In this document: positions 30,751 through 60,956 of the stretch, in pieces
Position numbering within the stretch: the first letter of the stretch is position 1
How the letters are laid out: every line of letters starts with the position of its first letter
Source: Thermoanaerobaculia bacterium
GTDB taxonomy: Bacteria > Acidobacteriota > Thermoanaerobaculia > Multivoradales > J023
Assembly: GCA_030431255.1 (NCBI GenBank)
Contig: JAUIJL010000017.1
Location: 124,001 to 188,000, forward strand
Reading direction: 5' to 3'
Length of the DNA stretch: 64,000 bases
Notes under the pieces: generated by a model
Seen by the model: only the letters and a program-made list of their open reading frames with translations
Told to the model about the DNA's origin: nothing
Databases searched by the model: none
Program-made: the position numbers and the translations under genes

Positions 30751-31410
30751 TCATCTTGAAAGTGAGACGAAAGTCGCAGATGTCCCAAATAAAAATAGGA
30801 CACCGACAAAGAAAAGGGCCGAGGTGTGAAGATGCTTGCGCTTTTCAGCCTTTCGCCACAGCTCGCGCAGCCTTTTGCGCGCCCGGAACAACACGCGGTT
30901 GAATCGATCCGGATCCACGTCGAGATCGCGGCAGATATCTCGGGGATGGTCGTCCCCGAGGTAGTAGCGGATCAACAGCTCACGGTCGCGATCGAGCCTC
31001 AGCTCCCCGAGCAACCGGCGAACGGTGGCGACTTCCTCGTCGCGAATCAGCTTGGAGAGCTGACCCTCGGCATGGGCGGCTTTATGTTCGGTGACCGGGT
31101 CGAGCTCGCCGTAGCGTTTTTCTTTGCGCCGATCGGCGAGGAATAGGTTGCGAGCCGTCGACCGGATGAAGCCGGCCAGGGCGTCGGGATTGCGGACCTC
31201 TCCGTTGCGGGTTTTGGTCAGCACCACGGCGAGCGTCTCCTGGCGTAGATCGTCGGCCAAGGTAGGATTGCCGGTCAGACGACGCAACATCATCAGCAGA
31301 CCCGCGCCGAAGGATTCCACCAGCTCACCCTCCGCGGATGGGTCGCCTTCTTGGATGCGCTCCACCAGGCGGCGATAGTCGGAGGCTTTGGTTTCGACGG
31401 TCGACGACAT
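30751..31410 (-). CDS. ECF sigma factor 2 with C-terminal hydrophobic tail
   Basis: A 219-aa protein from the ATG at 31410; the longer frame upstream is antisense to the divergent sigma gene. Region 2 (ADDLRQETLAVVLTKTRNG, FIRSTARNLFLADRRKEKRYG) and region 4 (DRDRELLIRYYLGDDHPRDICRDLDVDPDRFNRVLFRARKRL) match sigma 1. The end differs: a hydrophobic stretch TSALFFVGVLFLFGTSATFVS, long enough for a membrane helix, follows the basic KAEKRKH. A membrane-bound sigma factor would need release. The tail could also come from readthrough after a lost stop. No clear ribosome binding site. Confidence 0.85.
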   Translation of the reverse strand: MSSTVETKASDYRRLVERIQEGDPSAEGELVESFGAGLLMMLRRLTGNPTLADDLRQETLAVVLTKTRNGEVRNPDALAGFIRSTARNLFLADRRKEKRYGELDPVTEHKAAHAEGQLSKLIRDEEVATVRRLLGELRLDRDRELLIRYYLGDDHPRDICRDLDVDPDRFNRVLFRARKRLRELWRKAEKRKHLHTSALFFVGVLFLFGTSATFVSLSR

Positions 31411-31518
31411 TCGCCGATGATAGCGGATCGACGATCGACCCCGTACCGATCCGAGAAAAGTTCGACGGGAACCGGAACCTTTGTCGAGGCGGTGCGTTGT
31501 GAGGGTCGAGAGGATGAA
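31411..31518. promoter_or_regulatory. Divergent sigma-factor promoter region
   Basis: The 108-base gap separates ECF sigma 2 (minus) from ECF sigma 3 (plus). GGAACCT at 31474-31480 is like the -35 box of envelope-stress sigma factors and points toward sigma 3; I see no certain -10. Confidence 0.35.
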
Positions 31519-32136
31519 ATGTTGACCCATACAGAGACCTTGACCCACTCGACCGCCACCTCCCAAAAGGCGCTGAGTCTCGATCCAGAGGCTTTTGCGG
31601 TGCTGATCGAGCGCTATAAGGATCAGATCGTCAATTATCTGACCCGGCTGACCGGTGAGCGGGATCGGGCCGAGGACGTGGCCCAAGAAACGTTTGTCCG
31701 CTTTTATCAAAACCACCATCGTTATCGGGAAGAGGGGCATCTCACCGCTTATCTTTTCCGGATCGCCACCAACCTGGTGCGCAGCGAGGAGCGGCGCAAG
31801 AAGCGATGGCGCATTCTAGAGCCGATTTTCTCCCGCGGAGGAAGCAGCGCCGACGGCGTGCACACCCTCGACCATCAGCGGGAGCCCGATCCCCAGCGGA
31901 GCCTTCTGGCGTCGGAAGAGCAACGCAAGGTGGTCCAAGCTATTGCCGACTTGGACCTCACCTATCGGGCGCCGTTGGTGCTGCGGGAGATCGAAGGGCT
32001 TTCCTACCGTGAGATCGCCGAGATTTTGGATCTCAACGAGGGCACGGTGAAGTCCAGGTTGTTCCGGGCACGGGATGTTTTGAAGCAGAAGCTCGAGCCG
32101 TATTGGAAAGGAGAAAGCCATGATTCCGGCCAATGA
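31519..32136 (+). CDS. ECF sigma factor 3 (RpoE-like)
   Basis: A 205-aa protein from an ATG at 31519 with an AGAGG site. Region 2 is canonical (DRAEDVAQETFVRFYQNHHRY, YLFRIATNLVRSEERRKKR) and region 4 is canonical (YRAPLVLREIEGLSYREIAEIL, NEGTVKSRLFRARDVLK). It is more like typical RpoE factors than the two minus-strand sigma genes beside it. The anti-sigma gene overlaps its end by 17 bases, and a periplasmic PDZ protein follows, so it is likely an envelope-stress unit. Confidence 0.93.
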   Translation: MLTHTETLTHSTATSQKALSLDPEAFAVLIERYKDQIVNYLTRLTGERDRAEDVAQETFVRFYQNHHRYREEGHLTAYLFRIATNLVRSEERRKKRWRILEPIFSRGGSSADGVHTLDHQREPDPQRSLLASEEQRKVVQAIADLDLTYRAPLVLREIEGLSYREIAEILDLNEGTVKSRLFRARDVLKQKLEPYWKGESHDSGQ

Positions 32137-48765: not shown

Positions 48766-48810
48766 ACGAGGTCAAGACGGACGAGGTCAGGACGGACGAG
48801 GTCAGGACGG
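48766..48810. repeat. 15-bp tandem repeat at the 3' end of the subtilase gene
   Basis: Three copies of ACGAGGTCARGACGG. The last overlaps the stop codon region of the subtilase gene (48802). It is one of several short tandem repeats in the window. Confidence 0.7.
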
Positions 48811-50118
48811 ATCGGTTTCGTTTTGCGCGCTCGGGGGTAAGACACACGCTTGGCGTTGGTCGAGGGTCTCGCCGACCGCCGCGCAGGCGTCGACCACCAG
48901 CCGTCGATCCAAGGGTTTGGCGGTGGCTCGTAGCAGGGCTTCGAGTTGCTCGGGGCTCAGGTCGCGACGGTTTTCGAGCAGAAGAGCTACCACTCCGGAG
49001 ACTTGGGCGGCGGCCATGGACGAGCCGGAGAAGAAGTCGAAGGCTCCGCCGGGGGTGGTGGCGAGGATTTCTTCGCCCGGGGCCGCCAGCCATGACGTTT
49101 CCGACGGGGGCGCTCGGGTCGGCTCGGCTGCAAGGCCTTCGGGTCCGAGGGGAGCTGCGGCCACGGCGAGCACGGTGTCCAAGGAAGCGGGAAACATGGG
49201 CTGCGCGGGCTCTCGTCCGGCGGCGGCCACCACGGCGATGCCTTTGGCGTGGGCGGCATCCAGCAGCTTCTCGAGAATCGAGTCGCCCGGTCCTCCGAGG
49301 CTCATATTGATCACTTGCGAGTCGTTGACGATGGCGAAGTCGAGGGCCAGGGCCAGGGTGTAGCTGTCACAGGAAGCCTTGGCCGGATTGCCGGCGAGGG
49401 ACCAACACGCCTTGAGCAACATCAAATCGACCCGCGGCGCCACACCGACGATGCCGAAGCCGTTGTCGGCCGCTGCGGCGATCAAGCCGGCGACGGCGGT
49501 ACCGTGTCGATCGGCGGTAAAGCCGTCGGGTCGTCGCACGAAATCGCGGGCCAGGCTGACCCTGCCGTGAAGCTCGGGGTGCTGGAGGTCGGCTCCGGTG
49601 TCGATCACCGCGACTTTGACCGCTTGGCCGGTGGCCAATGTGTGGGCCGCGTCCAGCGCCAAGGTGTCCGCGGCGTGCTGGAGGTGGCGATAGGGCTCCT
49701 TGGGACTCCGACTTGCCGGCGATGGGGCCGAACCGCCCTGAGTCTCGTAGTGATGGATCGGCTCGACGGTGTCGATTCGAGGATCCCCGGCGATGGATCG
49801 CACGACACTGTGTAAGGGGCGTCGGGTCCGGGAGGTGAAGACCACACAACGCTGACCCAACGACTCCATCTGCCAAGCGGCCACCACATTCAGGGAATGA
49901 GCGCCCGCCAGCTCCCGGGTGACGCGATCCAAATATCGCGGCGGGGCCGGCGGCAGAACCACCAACAGGCGGGGGTCTTGCGCGGGATCGCCGTCCGCCG
50001 CGGTGGGATCTGGGGCCGGACCCGTCGACGGCGGTCCGCTGGAAGCACAGCCCGTCACCAGGAGCAAAGTCGCGGCGAAGATGCATGCGAGCATCGCGTG
50101 GTGTGTTGAGGGCTTCAT
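48802..50118 (-). CDS. Subtilisin-like (S8) lipoprotein protease
   Basis: A 438-aa protein. Lipobox VTGC (Cys24). An N-terminal prodomain-like part (about 50-122, RLLVVLPPAPPRYLDRVTREL, IDTVEP) is followed by the catalytic domain with Asp173 (VIDTGAD), His205 (RHGTAVAG) and Ser367 (FSGSSMAAAQ). The oxyanion-hole Asn found in AAAGN of most subtilases is replaced: the sequence is VVAAAGREP. So the triad is whole but the oxyanion hole is not standard. The ATG overlaps the stop of the anti-sigma gene (ATGA), so it belongs to the sigma-4 operon and may take part in its signalling. Confidence 0.9.
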   Translation of the reverse strand: MKPSTHHAMLACIFAATLLLVTGCASSGPPSTGPAPDPTAADGDPAQDPRLLVVLPPAPPRYLDRVTRELAGAHSLNVVAAWQMESLGQRCVVFTSRTRRPLHSVVRSIAGDPRIDTVEPIHHYETQGGSAPSPASRSPKEPYRHLQHAADTLALDAAHTLATGQAVKVAVIDTGADLQHPELHGRVSLARDFVRRPDGFTADRHGTAVAGLIAAAADNGFGIVGVAPRVDLMLLKACWSLAGNPAKASCDSYTLALALDFAIVNDSQVINMSLGGPGDSILEKLLDAAHAKGIAVVAAAGREPAQPMFPASLDTVLAVAAAPLGPEGLAAEPTRAPPSETSWLAAPGEEILATTPGGAFDFFSGSSMAAAQVSGVVALLLENRRDLSPEQLEALLRATAKPLDRRLVVDACAAVGETLDQRQACVLPPSAQNETDPS

Positions 50119-50903
50119 GGTGCCGGCATCGATTTGGGTTCAGCGAAGGTGGTCTCGGGGTTGGCGCGCAGGGTGGTCAGGGCTCGCTCGAGGCCGTCAC
50201 CGTGCCCGGTCTCCGGGGTGTCCGACGGGGTCTCCAAGGTCTCCAAGGTCCCCAAAGTCCCCAAGGCCACGGACCAGACGCCGAGCGCCGAGGGACCTCC
50301 GACAATCTGACCATCGACGGATCGAAGAATCGCTTGCATCCTTTGGATCGACGTCTCGGGTTGGAAGGCGATGGTCACTTGCGTCGAGTGCACCGGCGGT
50401 TTCGTTCCGCCCGGCTCCTCGGTCCCGTCGGAGAGGGTTTGATAAGTGCCTGGCACCGGTTTCAGGAGCAGGGGTCGAAGCATGAATCCGACCATCACCG
50501 CCAAGACGAGACCGGCGGCCAGGGCGAGAGTCATCCTTTGGGGGCGGGCGGTGCTCAGCCCACGATCGAGGCGCGGAGCTCCCACGGCTTCCGCGGTAGT
50601 GGCCGGCGGTTGGGCGTGATCGATGCGACGCATCACCGACGCCAAGCTGCTTTCGACGTCGAGGGGCGAGGTGGCAGAGGCGGCGGTGTCGTCCATCGCG
50701 GTGACGTCTAGGGCGCCCCTCAGCTCCGAGATGAAGAGTAGCTCCTGTCGGCATTCGGCACAGCGATCCAAATGGGCCAGCAATCGTCGTCGAAGGCTCG
50801 GCTCTAGATCCTCTTGGGGTAGCCAGGGCAGGTAGCTCATGGCCTGCTCGTGGTCCAAGGGCGAAATCGAAGGATCAAAAGGCGATGGGGCGGTTGGCGG
50901 CAT
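50115..50903 (-). CDS. zf-HC2 anti-sigma factor 4 with prodomain-like C-terminus
   Basis: A 262-aa protein from the ATG at 50903 with a GGAG site; the longer frame upstream is antisense to sigma 4. The zinc finger HLDRCAEC (HxxxCxxC) is canonical. One membrane segment lies about at 128-146 (LALAAGLVLAVMVGFML). A periplasmic part follows: VPGTY (a copy of the palindromic repeat), then a domain of about 90 residues (TQVTIAFQPETSIQRMQAILRS, VDGQIVGGPSALGVWSVAL, LERALTTLRANPETTFAEP) that reads like an inhibitor-I9/subtilisin prodomain. A small tandem repeat (LGTLGTLETLETP) lies in it. Coupled by ATGA to the subtilase gene. Confidence 0.8.
   Translation of the reverse strand: MPPTAPSPFDPSISPLDHEQAMSYLPWLPQEDLEPSLRRRLLAHLDRCAECRQELLFISELRGALDVTAMDDTAASATSPLDVESSLASVMRRIDHAQPPATTAEAVGAPRLDRGLSTARPQRMTLALAAGLVLAVMVGFMLRPLLLKPVPGTYQTLSDGTEEPGGTKPPVHSTQVTIAFQPETSIQRMQAILRSVDGQIVGGPSALGVWSVALGTLGTLETLETPSDTPETGHGDGLERALTTLRANPETTFAEPKSMPAP
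50444..50459 (-). repeat. GTGCCAGGCAC palindrome inside anti-sigma 4 gene
   Basis: AAGTGCCTGGCACCGG on the plus strand; read in the gene it gives VPGT, the same peptide as the CHAT-gene array at 20264-20560, just outside the membrane segment. Confidence 0.8.
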
Positions 50904-50917
50904 GCTGTTTCTCCGCG

Positions 50918-51502
50918 TCAAGTGATCGACCAGCCGAGGCGGGGCAGGATGCGTCGGAGTCGTTCGCGGGCGTGGAACATTCGGGTCTTCACGGTATTTA
51001 AGGGACAGTCGAGGATGTCGGCGATTTCTCGATAGGAGCGTTCCTCGAAGAAGGTCAGCTCGAGCACCACGCGGTGCTCCGGCGAAAGCTTGGCCATGGC
51101 GTTTTCCAACGACAAACGCAGCTCCCGGTTGGCCAGGGCGCGGTCCTCGGCACCGCCTTCCGGCAGTCGACCGTCGTCGGTCAGGCTGAGGTTGCTGGAC
51201 TTCTGAAGGGACTTCATGGCCTGTCGGTAGGTGATACCGAAGATCCAGCTGGAAACCTTGGACCGACCCTGGAAGGCCGCCGCGTCTCTCCACACCACGA
51301 ACATCACCTCTTGAATGACCTCCTCAGCTTGTTCGGGAGCCGAAACCCAGCGGCGGGCGAAACCCAGAAGCCGGGGATAGTAGCGGCGGTAGAGGGTTTC
51401 GAAAGCGCGACGATCCTGCCGAGCCACCGCCTCGATCAAGACGCTGTCGGTGAACGAGCCGTGCTTTGGCCCAAAGCCGGGACTATTTTGGGTCGACGAC
51501 AT
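50918..51502 (-). CDS. ECF sigma factor 4
   Basis: A 194-aa protein from the ATG at 51502. Region 2 (AFETLYRRYYPRLLGFARRWV, QAEEVIQEVMFVVWRDAAAF, WIFGITYRQAMKSLQK) and region 4 (LSPEHRVVLELTFFEERSYREIADIL, PLNTVKTRMFHARERL) are complete. It is the first gene of an operon with anti-sigma 4 (14 bases downstream) and the subtilase. A promoter of the form TGAACC-N18-ACATACT lies upstream (51536-51566), probably self-activated. Confidence 0.93.
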   Translation of the reverse strand: MSSTQNSPGFGPKHGSFTDSVLIEAVARQDRRAFETLYRRYYPRLLGFARRWVSAPEQAEEVIQEVMFVVWRDAAAFQGRSKVSSWIFGITYRQAMKSLQKSSNLSLTDDGRLPEGGAEDRALANRELRLSLENAMAKLSPEHRVVLELTFFEERSYREIADILDCPLNTVKTRMFHARERLRRILPRLGWSIT

Positions 51503-51535: not shown

Positions 51536-51566
51536 AGTATGTACCCGCAAAGGTCTCGTGGGTTCA
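51536..51566 (-). promoter_or_regulatory. ECF-type promoter of the sigma-4 operon
   Basis: On the minus strand TGAACC (51561-51566), an 18-base spacer and ACATACT (51536-51542), about 35 bases upstream of the sigma-4 start. It is matched by the divergent promoter at 51780-51810 with the same spacing. Confidence 0.55.
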
Positions 51567-51599
51567 AAAAACCTTCACTGCGTTTTCGCCGCTGCCTCT

Positions 51600-51673
51600 G
51601 AGGCAGCAGGTCTTCGAGGTAGCAGGTTTCGAGGTAGCAGGTCTTCGAGGTAGCAGGTTTCGAGGTAGCAGGT
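51600..51673. repeat. Five-copy tandem repeat of GAGGTAGCAGGT
   Basis: Five copies (the first with C for T) separated by CTTC and TTC in strict alternation, so the true unit is a 31-base pair of copies. It lies between the two divergent ECF-type promoters. Confidence 0.85.
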
Positions 51674-51779
51674 CTTCTGTGGTGTCGGGTTTTCCGTGGT
51701 TGCAGGCTTCGAAGAGGCCAAGAGGCCAAAGAAATCTGGCCTCGGTCGGTTTGACCTGTAGGATGTCGGAAGCTCACAT

Positions 51780-51810
51780 GAACCTTTTCGGCAGCTCACG
51801 GCACCTACTT
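51780..51810 (+). promoter_or_regulatory. ECF-type promoter of the cupredoxin/Calx-beta gene
   Basis: TGAACC (51780-51785), an 18-base spacer and ACCTACT (51804-51810), about 80 bases upstream of the cupredoxin gene start. Same boxes and spacing as the sigma-4 operon promoter. Confidence 0.55.
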
Positions 51811-51892: not shown

Positions 51893-53362
51893 ATGTCGGA
51901 TCGAAACCCCACCTCGTTCTTTTCAACCCTCGCCCTGAATCTCGGCCTCATAGTGTCGACCTTCGGCCTTCTCGTGCTGTCGAGCTCGGCCATGGCCGCC
52001 AATCACTCCGTGCAGGTCATGCCCAACAACACGTTCAGCCCACAGAACCTGACCATCGAGTCGGGCGACACGGTGACCTGGACCAACAACGGTGGATTCC
52101 ACAATGTGGAGGCGTCGGACGGCAGCTTCCGCTGCGCCAACGGCTGCGACGGCCAAGGGGGCGACGGCGCGCCGGCCTCCAATGCCTGGAGCTTTACCTT
52201 GACGTTCAACACGGTGGGTACCACCAATTATGTGTGCATCGTGCACGCGGCCCAGGGCATGACCGGCTCGATCACCGTCACCGGTGGCGGCGGTAATGAC
52301 GCGCCCGGTGATATTCGGCTGGGGACGGCGAGCCAGCAGCGCTCGGAGTCCGCCGGCTCGTTCAGCTTTGAGGTCCAACGGGTCGGTGGCGACGACGGCG
52401 CGGTGAACGTGACCTATATGACGGCCGACGGCACGGCCACCGCCGGCTCCGACTACACCGCCAGCTCGGGCACGGTGGCTTGGCCCGACAACGACGACAA
52501 TCCCCGGATCATCACCATTCCCATCCTCAACGACACCGAGGACGAGAGCAACGAAACTCTGACCGTGATGTTGTCCAATCCCACCGGTGGCGCCGGGCTC
52601 GGCAGCCCGTCGGCGGCGACCTTGACGATCACCGACGACGATGACCCGCAGACGGACCAACCCGGCACGCTGACCTTCTCGTCCAACGCCTATTCGGTGT
52701 CGGAAGGCGGCGGCAGCGCCACGATTCAAGTCCAGCGCAACAACGGCACGGACGGCGCCGTGGGCGTGAGCTACAGCACCGCCGACGGATCGGCCGCGTC
52801 GGGCAGCGATTACGTCACCAGCTCGGGCACCCTCAGCTGGGCCGATGGCGACGGCAGCACCAAGACCTTCACGGTGGATCTCATCGACGATGAGCTGGAA
52901 GAAGGCACGGAAACCGTCAATCTCACCCTGTCGAACGCCACCGGCGGCGCTTCTTTGGGCACCACCGCCGCCACCCTGAGCGTGACAGACAACGATGTCG
53001 ATGCGGATTGTGTGGCCGACGCGGACACCCTCTGTCTCGGTGTCGACGGCAGGTTCAGAGCCGAGATCGTGTGGCGGGCGCCCGGCGGCAATCCCCAGAA
53101 CGGCCAGAGTGTGGACGTGGGGCGTCAGGATTCCGGGCTGTTCTACTTCTTCGACGAGAACAACATCGAGATGTTGCTCAAGGTGTTGAACGGGTGCGGC
53201 ATCAACCAACGGTACTGGGTCTTCTACGCCGCCACCACCGACGTGGAATTCGAGCTGACCGTCACCGATACCTTGACCGCCACCCAAGCGACGTACTCCA
53301 ACGAGCTGGGCAATCCAGCACCGCCGGTGCTCGATACGAACGCCTTCGCCACCTGCCCTTGA
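51893..53362 (+). CDS. Secreted cupredoxin with Calx-beta domains
   Basis: A 489-aa protein. The ATG at 51893 has GGAG 6 bases upstream; the ATG at 51887 is too close. Signal peptide about 1-36. The cupredoxin domain (37-130) has the type-1 copper set His70, Cys115, His118 and Met123 (GFHNVEA, YVCIVHAAQGMTG). Two Calx-beta domains follow (about 140-245 and 255-360; VTYMTADGTATAGSDY, VSYSTADGSAASGSDY). A C-terminal domain (RFRAEIVWRAPGGNPQNGQ, SGLFYFFDENNIEMLLKVL) recurs in secreted Acidobacteriota proteins. It is likely electron carrier or copper binder at the cell surface. Confidence 0.88.
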   Translation: MSDRNPTSFFSTLALNLGLIVSTFGLLVLSSSAMAANHSVQVMPNNTFSPQNLTIESGDTVTWTNNGGFHNVEASDGSFRCANGCDGQGGDGAPASNAWSFTLTFNTVGTTNYVCIVHAAQGMTGSITVTGGGGNDAPGDIRLGTASQQRSESAGSFSFEVQRVGGDDGAVNVTYMTADGTATAGSDYTASSGTVAWPDNDDNPRIITIPILNDTEDESNETLTVMLSNPTGGAGLGSPSAATLTITDDDDPQTDQPGTLTFSSNAYSVSEGGGSATIQVQRNNGTDGAVGVSYSTADGSAASGSDYVTSSGTLSWADGDGSTKTFTVDLIDDELEEGTETVNLTLSNATGGASLGTTAATLSVTDNDVDADCVADADTLCLGVDGRFRAEIVWRAPGGNPQNGQSVDVGRQDSGLFYFFDENNIEMLLKVLNGCGINQRYWVFYAATTDVEFELTVTDTLTATQATYSNELGNPAPPVLDTNAFATCP

Positions 53363-53372
53363 GCACCGCGAT

Positions 53373-54299
53373 ATGAGCACCTCGAGAGCAAGCTACCTCA
53401 GCTTCCTGGCGGTTTTCCTGTGGGTCGTCCTCGTGTCGAGCGGGCCGCTCGCGGCCCAAAGCACCTTCGAGCCGGTGGTGGAGCTCGACTTCGCCGATCC
53501 CGAGTCGTGGGCCATGCAGTACTTTGCGTCGGCCAGCGTGATGACGTCCCTGGGCCCGGTAGAGCCCTCGGAGCCCGGCGAGCTGCGTTTGGGTTTTGAG
53601 GCCATGTGGGTGCCCGAGCTCGACCGGGAGCAGCGCACGGTGGGTTTCGGTGGCTTCAAAGAAGAAGACCTGAACCGCTCCGCGGTGTGGGGTCGGCTGC
53701 GGTTGGACGTCGGCTTGCCAGGCCGATTCACCGCCACCATCGGCTGGATTCCGCCGGTCGAGCTCGACGGCGTGGACGCGAGCCTGGTGTCCCTGGCCTT
53801 GGGTCGACCGTTGGTGACCCGAGATGCCTGGGGTCTAGGTCTGCGCCTCATCGGTCAAACCGGTGAGGTGAAAGGGGATTTGACCTGCAAAGAAGGAGCG
53901 GAGCACCTCTTTCCGTCCGGATCGCCCGAGAATCCCTTCGGTTGCGAGGCACCGTCCAGCGACGAGGTGACCCTGGACTATTGGGGTGCCCAGCTGGTGT
54001 CCCATCACCGTCTCCAAGCCGGTGCCGGGCCGGTGCTCCACTTCGGCGTCTCCTGGCACCGCATGGATCTGGACTTCCAGGTCGAGGCCCTCACCTTCGG
54101 CTTCTTGGATCGCAGCCTGCTGCGGGCCGAAGGTGATACCTGGGCGCTGACCGCCGGAGCCCGCTGGGATCTCGGAGAACGATCCACCCTGGCCGTCGAA
54201 GGCTTCTATTCCGATCTCGACGTCGAGCGACCCGGTCGAGACCGGGAGTCGGATCCCTTCTGGAATCTTCGGATCGGTTTCGGATATCGCATTCGCTGA
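53373..54299 (+). CDS. Outer-membrane beta-barrel protein
   Basis: A 308-aa protein with signal peptide about 1-28 (YLSFLAVFLWVVLVSSGPLAAQ). The body alternates polar and hydrophobic residues in strands (LRLGFEAMWV, RFTATIGWIPPVEL, LDYWGAQLVSHHRLQ, WALTAGARWDLGERSTLAVEGFYSDL) and ends in FGYRIR, as outer-membrane barrels of 10-12 strands do. No TonB plug or OmpA domain. It lies 10 bases after the cupredoxin gene and is probably cotranscribed. Confidence 0.75.
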   Translation: MSTSRASYLSFLAVFLWVVLVSSGPLAAQSTFEPVVELDFADPESWAMQYFASASVMTSLGPVEPSEPGELRLGFEAMWVPELDREQRTVGFGGFKEEDLNRSAVWGRLRLDVGLPGRFTATIGWIPPVELDGVDASLVSLALGRPLVTRDAWGLGLRLIGQTGEVKGDLTCKEGAEHLFPSGSPENPFGCEAPSSDEVTLDYWGAQLVSHHRLQAGAGPVLHFGVSWHRMDLDFQVEALTFGFLDRSLLRAEGDTWALTAGARWDLGERSTLAVEGFYSDLDVERPGRDRESDPFWNLRIGFGYRIR

Positions 54300-55313: not shown

Positions 55314-56183
55314 ATGATCAAAACCTTTAATCGGGCCGTGTTTACCTTAGCTCTGGGCTGCGTCACCTTATTGACCCTGGGTGCCTTGAGCGCTGTCCCT
55401 GCCGTCGGCAGCGGTCTCGAAGACCTCCAGATCAGCGGTCAGACCGTGACCGGTCGGATCGCGCTCCCGGGCGGAATTGAAGCGAGCCTGGAGATCACCT
55501 TCGAAAACGTCCAGAACCTGACCCTCGCCAATTTGGGTCTCTCCGCCGAGCTCGTCTCCCTCACGGATCCTGGCCTTCTGGCCCGATTCCCCTCGGGCGC
55601 CGTCGCGTCGATTCCCGCCGCCTTCCCGGTCCTGCTCCGATTCGTGCCGCCGGCGACGAGCACTCTCTCCTTCCAGGGCGTGGTGTCGGCGGAAATCTAT
55701 ACCCACCATCTCACCTACACCCCGGGCACTCAGCTGCGCTTGTTCAGCGCCGAGCCCGGGGGGCCGTTCGAAGACGTCAGCGCGTGGATGGATTCCGGCA
55801 GCTATCGGGTAGGTGCCGTGCATCCCGAGTTCTATCGCGAGCAGCTGATCGTGCTCGATACCCGCATGTTCCAAGCGGTGATCTCCCAGCAAGCGGATGC
55901 CCTGGAGCAAACCCTCGACAACCACGTGGGCGATATCGACACGAACGTCTTCTTGCAGCTGGAAAGCCTGATCGACCAGGCCCGCACCCAGATTTCCAAT
56001 GACGACGTCGAAGGGGCGCAAGCCACTCTCTCGAGCTTGCAGCAGACCGTGGTGTCCCAATCCGGCGAGTCGATTCCCGACGCCTGGGCCGCAGACGAAG
56101 AGCTGACCAACGTGGCGGGACGGCTGCGTGCCGATATCGCTCGGCTCAGCCATAGCCTGCAACGGCAGGGCGGGTCCTCCTGA
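55314..56183 (+). CDS. Secreted protein, possibly DUF6689-like
   Basis: A 289-aa protein with a strong GGAGGAG site. Signal peptide about 1-33 (FTLALGCVTLLTLGALSAVP). The N-terminal body (LEDLQISGQTVTGRIALPGG, LTLANLGLSAELVSLTDP, ASIPAAFPVLLRFVPP) is beta-rich; the end (about 190-285) is helical (LEQTLDNHVGDIDTN, LESLIDQARTQISNDDVEGA). I recall such N-terminal text in the DUF6689 family, with low certainty. It immediately precedes the FHA-GAF signalling operon (7-base gap). Confidence 0.65.
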   Translation: MIKTFNRAVFTLALGCVTLLTLGALSAVPAVGSGLEDLQISGQTVTGRIALPGGIEASLEITFENVQNLTLANLGLSAELVSLTDPGLLARFPSGAVASIPAAFPVLLRFVPPATSTLSFQGVVSAEIYTHHLTYTPGTQLRLFSAEPGGPFEDVSAWMDSGSYRVGAVHPEFYREQLIVLDTRMFQAVISQQADALEQTLDNHVGDIDTNVFLQLESLIDQARTQISNDDVEGAQATLSSLQQTVVSQSGESIPDAWAADEELTNVAGRLRADIARLSHSLQRQGGSS

Positions 56184-56190
56184 GCCGGGT

Positions 56191-57210
56191 ATGCCGGCTC
56201 GTCTCCACGTCCACTTTCCCGAGTCGCCCACGCGCAGCTTCACGCTGGCGGAGCGCTCGCCCCAGGTGATCGGCCGAGATCCGGCGTGTGAGATCACCAT
56301 CGACGACGACCGTGTGTCGCGTCGGCATGCCCACCTCCGCATGCGCGAGGACGGCTCGTGGTGGCTGAAAGATCTCGGAAGCAAAAACGGCACCCAAGTC
56401 AACGGTCGTCCCGCGGACGATTTGAGACTGGATGCCAAGGCGTGGATCAGCCTCGGGGGTCTGCCGGCTGAGCTCGAAATTCTGTCGGCGGAGCAAGCGG
56501 AAGCGGAATCGAAACACCATCAAGAGCGTTGGCGCGCTTCCCTGAGCATGCAGACCCGGCTGGATCCAGCGGCAGGCTTGGAGGCTTTGTTGCAGCAGGT
56601 GCTACGTTCGATCCTGGATACCTCGGGCTGCCGCCGGGGATTCATTTTGTTGACCGAGGCGGAGGGCGGATTGGAGCTCGTCGCCCGAGTCGGGGTCGAC
56701 ACCGAGGATTTGCTGGCGGCCCGTTTTGAAGGCAGCGCCGGCGCCGTGGAACGGGCGCTGACCACCGGCCGCCCCGTGGCGTTGGCGGACGCCCGTCTCG
56801 ACACGGTGCTCGGCGCCCGTCCGTCGATCATCGCCAGCGATCTGCGAGCTCTGGTGTGTCTGCCCTTGTTGGTGATGGATCGGATCATCGGCGTGGCCTA
56901 CGCCGACAGCCGTGAGGCCGGCAAGCCCTTCTCGGAGCTGGATATCGACATCTTGACCGCCATGGCGTCCCACGCCGGGCTGGCGATCAGTGTCGCCAAG
57001 CTACATCGAGAGGTCGTTGGGTTGAATCGCGAGATTCCCGGCGCCGAGAGCCCGCTGAGCGCCACCGCGCCGATCATGGCCGACCCTTGGGAACGAAGTC
57101 TGCCGTCCTATCGACCCACGGGGGATTGGCGCCAGGCATTGGGTAGCGACGGAACCTTGGGTAGCGACGGAACCTTGGGTAGCGACGGAACGGCGGGAGC
57201 CGTCGGGTGA
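56191..57210 (+). CDS. FHA-GAF signalling protein
   Basis: A 339-aa protein from the ATG at 56191. FHA domain about 10-90 with VIGRDPACEITI, RVSRRHAHLR and DLGSKNGTQVNG, i.e. phosphothreonine-binding residues intact. GAF domain about 120-280 (LLQQVLRSILDTSGCRRGFILL, RALVCLPLLVMDRIIGVAYAD). The C-terminal end carries an 18-base tandem repeat (GSDGTL). The stop overlaps the start of the Ser/Thr kinase (GTGA). It probably docks the phosphorylated kinase or its targets and senses a ligand through GAF. Confidence 0.92.
   Translation: MPARLHVHFPESPTRSFTLAERSPQVIGRDPACEITIDDDRVSRRHAHLRMREDGSWWLKDLGSKNGTQVNGRPADDLRLDAKAWISLGGLPAELEILSAEQAEAESKHHQERWRASLSMQTRLDPAAGLEALLQQVLRSILDTSGCRRGFILLTEAEGGLELVARVGVDTEDLLAARFEGSAGAVERALTTGRPVALADARLDTVLGARPSIIASDLRALVCLPLLVMDRIIGVAYADSREAGKPFSELDIDILTAMASHAGLAISVAKLHREVVGLNREIPGAESPLSATAPIMADPWERSLPSYRPTGDWRQALGSDGTLGSDGTLGSDGTAGAVG
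57141..57191 (+). repeat. 18-bp tandem repeat in the FHA-GAF gene (GSDGTL)
   Basis: GGGTAGCGACGGAACCTT occurs twice and a third time truncated. The units keep the frame and give GSDGTL repeats at the end of the protein. Confidence 0.85.
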
Positions 57211-60200
57211 CCGAAGACAAACCTCCCGTCGCCGATTCCACACCGGCAGCGCCCTCGAACGGCCTGGACGCCACCCGCACCTCCGTCGGGGAAGCCAAGC
57301 CGGACGCCTCCACGCCGGTCGCCTCCCCCGCGGCCTTGGGCGCCACCGTGACCTCGGTCGGTGCCATGTCCGTGCAGGTTCCGGGCAGCCTCTTCGCCGG
57401 AAGATATCGGATCCTCGAGATGGTGGGAGTCGGTGGCATGGGCATGGTGTACCACGCTTTCGACGAGCGCCTCGAGCTGCCGGTGGCCCTGAAGCTGCTG
57501 CGACCCGAGCGCGCCGCCGACCAGGAGATGAAGGACCGCTTTCGCCGCGAGCTGATCCTCGCCCGTCAGGTCTCCCACCGGAACGTGGTCCGCATCCACG
57601 ACCTCGGAGAAACCGAGGACGTCTACTTCCTGACCATGGATTACGTCGAGGGGCGCTCCCTCAAGGAGCTGCTGGCGGAGGAGGGTCCCCTGGATCCGGA
57701 AAGGGTCGTGGAGATTGCCCAACAAATCACCGGAGCGTTGGCCGCCGCCCATCGCGAAGGCGTGGTGCATCGAGACCTCAAACCGGCCAACATCATGATC
57801 GATCACGAGGGCCGTGCCTTCGTCACCGACTTCGGCATCGCCAGCTCCGCGAGCGCCGTCGGCCTCACCGCCACCGGTGGCATTGTGGGCACTCCCGACT
57901 ACTTGGCTCCCGAGCAGGCCCGGGGCGAGGCGGTGGACCCGCGGGCGGATCTCTACGCCCTCGGTTTGATTCTCTTCGAGCTGTCGAGCCGCCGCCTACC
58001 GTTCGCCGGCGGCAGCCTGACAGAGGTGCTCGCCCAGCGGATTTCCGGTCGGGCGATGCGGCTCGAAGAGGTCGCCGACCACGTGCCCAAAGGCCTTTCC
58101 CAAATCATCGCTCGCTGCCTCGAGCGGGATCCCGAGGATCGCTATCAAAGCGCCGAGGACATCGCCGCCGACCTGGCCGCGGGTCGAGCCACCGGCGGCG
58201 CCTTTCGGAGCGGGTGGCGCAAGACACGATCCCTGATCCGTCGACACGCGGTGTCGATATTGGCTGCGGCGGTGATCGTGATCTCGGTTCTCGCCCTTGC
58301 GTCCCTCTTCGAGCCGGCCGAGGAAACCGCCCCGGGGCCCCGGCACTCGGTCGCTATTCTGCCCTTGGCCGACGAAACCGGCCGAGCCGACCTCGCTTGG
58401 CTGGCCACGGGCCTGCCGGAAATGCTCGCCGGAAATCTGGCGGAGAGCGCGGAGCTGCGGGTGATCGACAGCATGCGCGTGAGCCGCACTCTCGGCGATT
58501 TGGGAATCACCGTCGGCACTATGACCGAGGTCGAGCGGCGGTTGATCTCCGACCTGCTCGGCACCGATCGCCTGGTGTCCGGTCGGGTGCGGGTGCTCGG
58601 CGAGTCCGTCCGGGTCGACGTGCAATTGGTGCCCATGGACGCCGAGGAGCCCGTGGCGGAGTCTTTTCATGTGGAAGCGCCGTTGGATCGCGACCTGTTG
58701 AGCGTGGTCGAAAAGCTCGACCGAGAGCTGTGCCGTCGACTCGGTGTTCCGTCGCCAGCGGCCGCCATGAGCCTTCCCGCCCAAGGCGCCGACGTCGGCG
58801 GTGACTACGTGCGAGGGCTCGACGCCATCGGGCGTGGCGACTTGTCCACGGCGGTGACGGCATTCGAAGGCGCCGTGGCCGGCACGCCGGAGCTGACTCC
58901 GGCGTGGGCTCATCTGTCGCGGCTTTACGGCGACATGGGCTTTGCCGACAAGGCGCGGCAAGCGGTGGACAAGGCATTGGCCGGAACCCGGGAAAACAGC
59001 CGGATCGGGCTGTTGCTCAACGCTCGGGCCGCCCTGCTCGCGGGAGAGGGGGAGGTCGCCGTCGGCCATCTTCAAACCTTGGCGGAGCGATTTCCTTTCG
59101 ACTCCGAAGGGCGTCTGGAGCTGGCCCAATTCTACGGCGCCACGGGACGTTTCGAAGAGGCGTCCAAGGAGCTCGAAGCCCTCACCGATGAAGATGCCCA
59201 GCATCCCCAAGCTTGGTTTTTGCTGGGGAAATTCGCCATTCTGATGGGCGAGAGCCGGCGGGCGGTGGACGAATATTTGACCCGAGCGCTGGTGATCCAC
59301 AACCGCCTCGACAATTTGAGCGGTCAAGGGGAGGTGCTCAACGCCTTCGGCATTGCCTATCAGAAGCTCGGTGATATGGAAGACGCCGAAAGACGTTATC
59401 TCGAAGCCGCCGACATCCGTCGGCAAACCGGCGATCTGCGGGGTCAATCGTCGTCGCTTTTCAATCTCGCCATATTGCGCGCCCGCCGTGGGCATTTCGA
59501 CGCCGCCCGCGACGATTTACAGCAAGTGCTCGCCGTGCGTCGGGATATCGGCGACGAGCGCGGGGTGGCCAGCGCCTACAATCACCTGGGGCATGTGCTC
59601 GAGCAACAAGGTCTCTACCGCCAAGCCCGAGAGCAATACGTCGCCGGTCTCGAGGGGCGGCGTCCCATGGGCAATGGACGCGCCATTGCCGAGAGTTTGA
59701 ATAACGTGGGTTTCATGGACTTTTTGCTCGGCGACTACGATCGGGCGTCCGACCACTGGCGAGAGGCGATCGACATCTACCGCGCCGACGGCAATCCCGA
59801 AGGTGAGGCCTTGGTCGCCCAGAGCATCGCTCGCCTCGACTTGACGCGTGGCGCCTGGCAATCGGCCCTCGACGCCGTTTTGGCCTCGTTGGAGTCGAGC
59901 CGCGCCAGCGGTCGGCGCGACGCCGAAGCGGTTGCCCTCGGCCTGCTGGCGCGGGCAGCCCACGGCCAGGGTCGCTTAGCCGCCGCGCGAAAATCCTTCG
60001 ACGAAGCCTTGGCCATCTTCGAAGAGCTGGGGGAAGTCTCGGCCCTCACCGAGCTGACCTTGGCCCGGGCCGAGCTGCTTCTGGAGCTCGGCGCTTTCGA
60101 CGCCGCCGAGCTCGACCTCGAGCGGGCGGAGCTCTGGCTGCAGGATCGTCACCACCACGAGCGAAATGCGGAGCTCTTGCGACTCCAGGGGTTTCGTCAT

Positions 60201-60956
60201 TTGGCTCAAGGGCAGCTCGATGCGTCGACCCAGGCTTTCGAGGCGTCCCTCGACGCCGCCGAGCTCAGCGGCAGCCGCGAAGCCGAGCTGTGGGCCCGTT
60301 TGGGCCTCGGGCAAACCGAGCTGGCCGCCGGGGCCACGGCTCGTGCTCGGACCCTTCTCGAGAACGTCGCCGAGGCCGGGCGAGCTTTAGGTCACGCCCG
60401 GCTCCAAGTCCGAGCAGCTTTGCCCCTGGCCCGGGCCTATGGGCTAGGGGAGCGAATCGGCGCCGCCGAAAGCACCCTGCGCGCCGCCCTGGAGCTGGCC
60501 GAGGCCCGTGCCCCCCTGGGGGGCAGCCATCTCGTCCACTGGCGCCTGGCGAAGGTGCTGGACCAGCGCGGTCTCGACGCCGAGGCCCGGGCCCAGCTCG
60601 AAAAGGCGGCGCTCGTCGTGGCTCGGATTCGTGAAAGCTTGGACGCGCCCGATCGTGCGACCTTTGATCGTCTGCCGGAGGTACAAACCCTTGAGCAAGA
60701 AATCGCCGAACGAGGAATCCGAGGCCTCGACACCGATACCGACGCCGAAAGCAGCGGGCTCACCGCCCATGCCTCCGTCCCTCGGCCCGCCCGCGCCTTC
60801 CACGGCCGATCTTCCGGTGAGAGGTCTTTCCGCGAAAAGTGTTTCAACCGTCGCGGCGTCGACCCCTCAAATATCGAAGCCCCCCACGTCGACGACCCCC
60901 GCGTCTGCCACCCCAGCGTCGGTGACTCAAACCTTGGAGCTGCCGCCGCGGGATGA
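57207..60956 (+). CDS. Membrane Ser/Thr protein kinase with TPR sensor tail
   Basis: A 1249-aa protein. GTG start overlapping the FHA-GAF stop. Kinase domain about 65-335: G-loop GVGGMG (74-79), Lys96, HRDLKPAN (His188-), DFG (Asp208), APE in YLAPEQAR. One membrane segment about 348-366 (VSILAAAVIVISVLALASL). A periplasmic part starts with a domain like those of adenylate-cyclase/TolB-type proteins (SVAILPLADETGRADLAWLA, LGTDRLVSGRVRV), then TPR repeats (about 530-1120). The C-terminal 88 codons overlap the histidine kinase gene in another frame and look like low-complexity text. All catalytic residues are present. Confidence 0.94.
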   Translation: MTEDKPPVADSTPAAPSNGLDATRTSVGEAKPDASTPVASPAALGATVTSVGAMSVQVPGSLFAGRYRILEMVGVGGMGMVYHAFDERLELPVALKLLRPERAADQEMKDRFRRELILARQVSHRNVVRIHDLGETEDVYFLTMDYVEGRSLKELLAEEGPLDPERVVEIAQQITGALAAAHREGVVHRDLKPANIMIDHEGRAFVTDFGIASSASAVGLTATGGIVGTPDYLAPEQARGEAVDPRADLYALGLILFELSSRRLPFAGGSLTEVLAQRISGRAMRLEEVADHVPKGLSQIIARCLERDPEDRYQSAEDIAADLAAGRATGGAFRSGWRKTRSLIRRHAVSILAAAVIVISVLALASLFEPAEETAPGPRHSVAILPLADETGRADLAWLATGLPEMLAGNLAESAELRVIDSMRVSRTLGDLGITVGTMTEVERRLISDLLGTDRLVSGRVRVLGESVRVDVQLVPMDAEEPVAESFHVEAPLDRDLLSVVEKLDRELCRRLGVPSPAAAMSLPAQGADVGGDYVRGLDAIGRGDLSTAVTAFEGAVAGTPELTPAWAHLSRLYGDMGFADKARQAVDKALAGTRENSRIGLLLNARAALLAGEGEVAVGHLQTLAERFPFDSEGRLELAQFYGATGRFEEASKELEALTDEDAQHPQAWFLLGKFAILMGESRRAVDEYLTRALVIHNRLDNLSGQGEVLNAFGIAYQKLGDMEDAERRYLEAADIRRQTGDLRGQSSSLFNLAILRARRGHFDAARDDLQQVLAVRRDIGDERGVASAYNHLGHVLEQQGLYRQAREQYVAGLEGRRPMGNGRAIAESLNNVGFMDFLLGDYDRASDHWREAIDIYRADGNPEGEALVAQSIARLDLTRGAWQSALDAVLASLESSRASGRRDAEAVALGLLARAAHGQGRLAAARKSFDEALAIFEELGEVSALTELTLARAELLLELGAFDAAELDLERAELWLQDRHHHERNAELLRLQGFRHLAQGQLDASTQAFEASLDAAELSGSREAELWARLGLGQTELAAGATARARTLLENVAEAGRALGHARLQVRAALPLARAYGLGERIGAAESTLRAALELAEARAPLGGSHLVHWRLAKVLDQRGLDAEARAQLEKAALVVARIRESLDAPDRATFDRLPEVQTLEQEIAERGIRGLDTDTDAESSGLTAHASVPRPARAFHGRSSGERSFREKCFNRRGVDPSNIEAPHVDDPRVCHPSVGDSNLGAAAAG

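Follow-up and report, generated by a model that had tools for sequence, protein, structure and literature searches.

The locus raises a simple question. In the window, by which we mean the whole stretch of 64,000 nucleotides analysed here, two boxes of the form TGAACC-N18-ACMTACT lie on opposite strands, pointing away from each other. Are these boxes promoters, and if so, which sigma factor reads them and which genes would it control? The comparisons presented below make it very probable that both are ECF-type promoters for the sigma factor whose gene lies at 50918-51502, and they point to its likely targets. The host is apparently an acidobacterium of the class Thermoanaerobaculia.

Both boxes were present without mismatch, as TGAACCCACGAGACCTTTGCGGGTACATACT on the minus strand and as TGAACCTTTTCGGCAGCTCACGGCACCTACT on the plus strand. 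The original prediction had placed the plus-strand box at 51780-51810, one base too far to the right. Its orientation and neighbours held up: the minus box points to the sigma operon and the plus box to the cupredoxin/beta-barrel genes. A sigma-70-like promoter was looked for in the 48.5-55.3 kb part of the window and none was found there. The spacer between the boxes carries a tandem repeat of 15/16 nt (GAGGTAGCAGGTCTTC, five copies, 51600-51677), which lies outside the conserved promoter. The coordinates are collected in Table 1.

Table 1. Boxes and genes of the locus (positions in the window).
Feature	Position	Strand	Basis and remarks
Putative sigma-operon promoter box	51536-51566	-	exact TGAACC-N18-ACATACT; 24.3 bits (relatives-only matrix); kept in 19/19 orthologs
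-35 half of minus box, TGAACC	51561-51566	-	spacer N18
-10 half of minus box, ACATACT	51536-51542	-	spacer N18
Putative cupredoxin/beta-barrel operon promoter box, divergent	51779-51809	+	exact TGAACC-N18-ACCTACT; 26.8 bits
-35 half of plus box, TGAACC	51779-51784	+	spacer N18
-10 half of plus box, ACCTACT	51803-51809	+	spacer N18
ECF sigma factor, sigma2 + sigma4 only	50918-51502	-	Pfam, start context
Anti-sigma factor	50115-50903	-	HxxxCxxC helical domain at the N-terminus, a single transmembrane helix, and an outer domain like a subtilisin propeptide
S8 subtilase, putative lipoprotein	48802-50118	-	Pfam Peptidase_S8, 129.8 bits
Exported type-1 copper (cupredoxin) protein with two Calx-beta domains	51893-53362	+	Pfam; start 51887 or 51893
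Predicted outer-membrane beta-barrel protein, conserved locus partner	53373-54299	+	

Within the 193-aa sigma stretch, Pfam detected Sigma70_r2 (36-101) and r4_2 (129-181) and no further domain. Between the -10 half and the ATG at 51502 there are about 34 nt, and AAAGGAA stands ahead of this start codon. The TTG at 51550 given in the ORF list was rejected as a start, since it falls inside the promoter and is impossible if the box is one. The anti-sigma gene begins 14 nt past the sigma stop codon, and this co-encoding is kept in relatives. In the protein, H44, C48 and C51 are conserved to more than 90%, helices are predicted in the N-terminal domain, and a single membrane helix is predicted at 122-146. 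With HxxxCxxC in an N-terminal helical domain and one membrane helix it has the features of a class I anti-sigma factor (ZAS, zf-HC2), its zf-HC2 match of 19.6 bits lying under the Pfam cut-off of 22.2. In the S8 subtilase the catalytic residues D173, H205 and S367 are invariant in an alignment of 24 sequences. The copper protein matches PF00127 with 38.6 bits, and its GFHN ... CIVHAAQGM carries the His/Cys/His/Met ligands. The barrel was predicted with good confidence and resembles outer-membrane barrels generally, with no single family standing out. Beyond the barrel gene, at 55314-60956, the window encodes a DUF6689 protein, a protein of FHA-GAF type and a large TPR-repeat Ser/Thr kinase, possibly a signalling cluster. 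A second sigma-70-family (ECF-like) gene in the window (31249-32136, plus strand) has no box above 9.5 bits nearby.

That such a pair is unlikely to arise by chance had been argued from the two sites themselves. This argument came after the fact, with a motif drawn from both sites; with two mismatches allowed, the expectation for the window is 0.79 matches. An independent matrix of 34 nt was therefore the relevant measure, trained solely on the sigma-upstream boxes of 18 relatives with the window excluded; its consensus is ATTGAACC-N15-GGnACnTAC. In the 64 kb, the plus box ranked first and the minus box second, with chance expectations at window base composition of 1.2e-4 and 8e-4, and the next match reached 10.5 bits. 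A chance likeness of two sequences chosen by eye has a vanishing probability, and this reading is already refuted by the cross-genome data, in which 19 orthologs conserve the box. Across 314 kb of sigma loci, 43 matrix matches above 9.5 bits (the 18 training boxes included) were obtained, against 3 in reversed sequence, and the native spacer length separates both halves in 31 of 38 strong pairs.

The literal motif TGAACC-N18-ACMTACT had also been offered as a means of finding the whole regulon. It failed in this role: an exact scan of the 10.2 Mb genome returned only the pair itself. With one mismatch allowed, 7 matches were counted against 25 for the reversed pattern, so the extra matches are noise. 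WTGAACC-N15-GGnACnnAC serves better when its matches are scored with a matrix, and it replaces the literal motif. Relaxed patterns in six relatives were mostly at or below control, and sites in relatives were accepted only when they were scored by the matrix and had a fitting gene behind them. Genome-wide pattern counts did not rise above the reversed-pattern control, so that single matches beyond the three strong ones (the pair and a third box described below) are unsafe.

The boxes were then compared across genomes. In 40 related genomes, 19 sigma loci stood clearly above all other matches (E 1e-37 or better, plus one cut by a contig end at E 4e-26), and 32 further genomes added three more sigma orthologs with an equal score gap. 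TGAACC followed at promoter-like distance by a -10 half of AC-nn-AC type was found before 19 of 19 sigma orthologs. No box was found upstream of the 11 best-matching ECF genes in genomes lacking the ortholog, nor upstream of 20 further ECF genes. The five-gene cluster is kept across families with varying gene order, and 12 of 18 relatives have an opposite-strand box facing the divergent gene, which in several of them is weaker than the sigma box (12-15 bits). Where the S8 gene forms a separate transcription unit it has its own box (L051, 26.0 bits; L053, 19.9; L078, 20.9), as does the cupredoxin/Calx-beta gene that lies behind S8 in L047 (19.7 bits). At the relocated cupredoxin gene of L039 and L043 no box above threshold was detected; both (loci L245 and L243) carry TGAACC-N19 with an ACTCACC -10 half some 150 nt upstream of this domain in the cupredoxin protein. 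Comparison across genomes strongly supports the local ECF regulon that had been proposed. The name 'sigma 4' given to the factor was not confirmed.

The same data bear on a second reading, in which the boxes are operator sites of an ordinary DNA-binding regulator. Conserved motifs with a spacer are typical of operators, too, when they lie between divergent genes. However, the motif is asymmetric and points toward the gene, its two halves keep a constant distance of the kind seen in promoters, and its -35 half contains the AAC that is usual in ECF promoters (PMC8103513). Moreover, the presence of the box follows the sigma gene across genomes, and the genes that were compared included no further conserved gene recognisable as a regulator. 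We regard operator sites as highly improbable.

In its own genome, the sigma factor seems to have few further promoters. The WTGAACC-N15-GGnACnnAC pattern, followed by the matrix, identified a third box of 22.4 bits at contig positions 194925-194958 (minus strand), 19 kb from the sigma gene and 7 kb past the right edge of the window. A second exported cupredoxin is encoded behind it, the start codon (ATG) lying 60 nt from the start of the box. A weaker candidate of 16.6 bits precedes the gene of a YceI-like exported protein on contig 36. A candidate divergent pair on contig 29 (L166; 218694-218727, minus, and 218768-218801, plus) scored 14.7 and 13.2 bits; on either strand it shows a TTTGAACC box with a -10 half of the form ACnnAC. 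At 13.2-16.6 bits tens of chance matches are expected in 10 Mb, and it is their position alone that makes these sites candidates. The regulon looks very small here and mostly confined to one contig, as judged from a pattern-based scan that may miss weaker promoters.

The contig 29 pair flanks the gene of a paralogous ECF sigma (38% identical), which is accompanied by a zf-HC2 anti-sigma of its own, and the divergent gene encodes an exported trypsin-like protease. Cross-reading by two sigma factors is conceivable from this arrangement, and the window boxes might be read mainly by another ECF sigma such as this paralog. Yet the contig 29 boxes score low and show bases of TC/TC type in place of the GG of the window boxes, and across the order the box tracks the ortholog of the window's sigma, while other ECF genes have none upstream. 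A different main reader is in our estimation improbable, and recognition by the sigma encoded at 50918-51502 is the reading followed below.

A test in trans was carried out with the cupredoxin genes. The best cupredoxin matches of 71 genomes in the order were scored for a same-strand upstream box. A box above 12 bits was found in 16 of the 18 sigma-carrying genomes and in 1 of the 12 that lack the factor (Fisher exact p 1.5e-5, which is indicative as the genomes are related). The p-value uses this stricter count; 18 of 18 is reached if two N19 forms are included, a judgement made afterwards. The only box-positive genome without the sigma had a weak box (13.1 bits). In six genomes (G013, G021, G023, G027, G032, G034) the boxed cupredoxin gene lies on another contig than the sigma gene, and in G029 it lies 174 kb away. 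Thus, the association does not merely reflect common intergenic DNA.

More distant genomes gave a similar picture. Among 67 proteobacterial homologs, 53 had a sigma box at 400 nt or less and 15 had an opposite-strand box; reversed stretches gave 0. The sigma factor and its box therefore make up a module common to two phyla. One proteobacterial locus (L102) carries the divergent pair twice in tandem, giving four boxes 200-371 nt before the sigma match. In other genomes the box also precedes genes for cupredoxins (L178, L184), CHRD exported proteins (L177, L175, L220, L078, L072, L100) and other exported proteins. CHRD was rejected as a constant target in the order, where, among the CHRD genes retrieved, just three (G010, G011, G023) had a box above 12 bits before them; judged by these boxes, CHRD genes are occasional targets in this order.

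We also analysed how the sigma factor might be controlled. Known pairs of an ECF sigma and a membrane anti-sigma are controlled via proteolysis of the anti-sigma. The outer domain of the anti-sigma, about residues 165-262, has a predicted beta-alpha-beta-beta-alpha-beta arrangement. Its profile matched the propeptide region of the co-encoded S8 with E 6e-7 to 7e-7 and a probability of 92 and 85 in two runs. As controls, column shuffles and most other segments stayed below 1, with one segment at 27. The six best PDB matches of the domain were all prodomains of subtilisin or of the PC1/3 proprotein convertase (Z 8.2-8.5, rmsd 2.3-2.9); many unrelated ferredoxin-like folds reach Z 7-8, the fold class being common, and Foldseek E-values were weak. 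The outer domain did not reach Pfam I9.

Taken together, these results suggest the following model. The sigma factor would recognise a -35 TTGAACC and, after a gap of 15 nt, GGnACnTAC around the -10. From the minus promoter it would turn on its own operon of sigma, anti-sigma and S8 subtilase, and the box before the sigma gene fits such a positive autoregulation. The plus promoter would drive the exported blue-copper/Calx-beta protein and the outer-membrane beta-barrel, and the third promoter the second exported cupredoxin. At rest, the zinc-domain anti-sigma would tether the sigma to the inner membrane. Because the outer domain resembles the S8 propeptide, the most likely trigger would be the co-encoded S8, which may dock on this domain and cut it, setting the sigma free. 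We put forward proteolytic release by S8 tentatively, as something that may well be true at somewhat less than even chances. The same caution applies to the complete scheme of a subtilisin-gated ECF switch in Acidobacteriota and Proteobacteria, in which the sigma-made S8 lipoprotein cuts the propeptide-like anti-sigma and the freed sigma turns on exported copper, CHRD and barrel proteins; it is a possible scheme, short of a probable one. Alternatively, S8 could be a mere regulon product that serves surface proteolysis and leaves the anti-sigma alone, the outer domain sensing something else. This has a serious though not quite even chance of being correct. In some genomes S8 stands apart from the sigma operon with a box of its own, as targets do, and at some proteobacterial loci no S8 was detected; against this, the outer domain resembles the S8 propeptide both by profile and by fold, and the S8 and anti-sigma genes stay together in most loci.

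For 102 of 157 ECF groups there is no mechanistic or functional insight at all (PMC8103513). The analysis provides a promoter motif, supported across genomes, for an ECF sigma that occurs in two phyla and seems not to have been studied so far. It also indicates that the likely target genes encode exported proteins of the cupredoxin, Calx-beta, CHRD, subtilase and barrel types, and it proposes a specific route by which a protease could be sensed, the propeptide-like domain on the anti-sigma. A literature search for an ECF sigma with a subtilase and a propeptide-like anti-sigma found none; it did not extend to the main ECF classification paper, which may list such a system.

Comparison with known systems places the locus as follows. 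CGT in the -10 was an early hallmark of ECF (group IV) factors, and the definition was later restricted to sigma2 and sigma4 only (PMC8103513). The factor described here has these two domains alone, a co-encoded anti-sigma and AAC in the -35, and its -10 lacks CGT. It resembles E. coli sigmaE-RseA in being a sigma2 + sigma4 factor with a co-encoded membrane anti-sigma and probable positive autoregulation from an AAC-type -35 (PMC8103513). In contrast to sigmaE-RseA, the -10 is GnACnTAC instead of CGT, a subtilase is part of the operon, and the genes predicted to be controlled encode exported cupredoxin, Calx-beta, CHRD and beta-barrel proteins. In B. subtilis sigmaV-RsiV, the sigma is released once lysozyme binds the anti-sigma (PMC4183432). 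Both anti-sigma factors are single-pass proteins, and here, too, the outer domain would bind an extracytoplasmic enzyme; whereas RsiV binds lysozyme, the domain here resembles the propeptide of a subtilisin, and the operon includes a gene for a subtilase. The best structural matches are subtilisin propeptides and I9-type inhibitors (1scj, 1spb, 3cnq, POIA1 1v5i), small domains with the beta-alpha-beta-beta-alpha-beta fold predicted here, but in this case the domain is attached to a membrane-bound anti-sigma instead of a protease, and identity is only 10-16%. Autoregulated ECF/anti-sigma circuits are of a known kind, and the pairing of anti-sigma and protease looks new.
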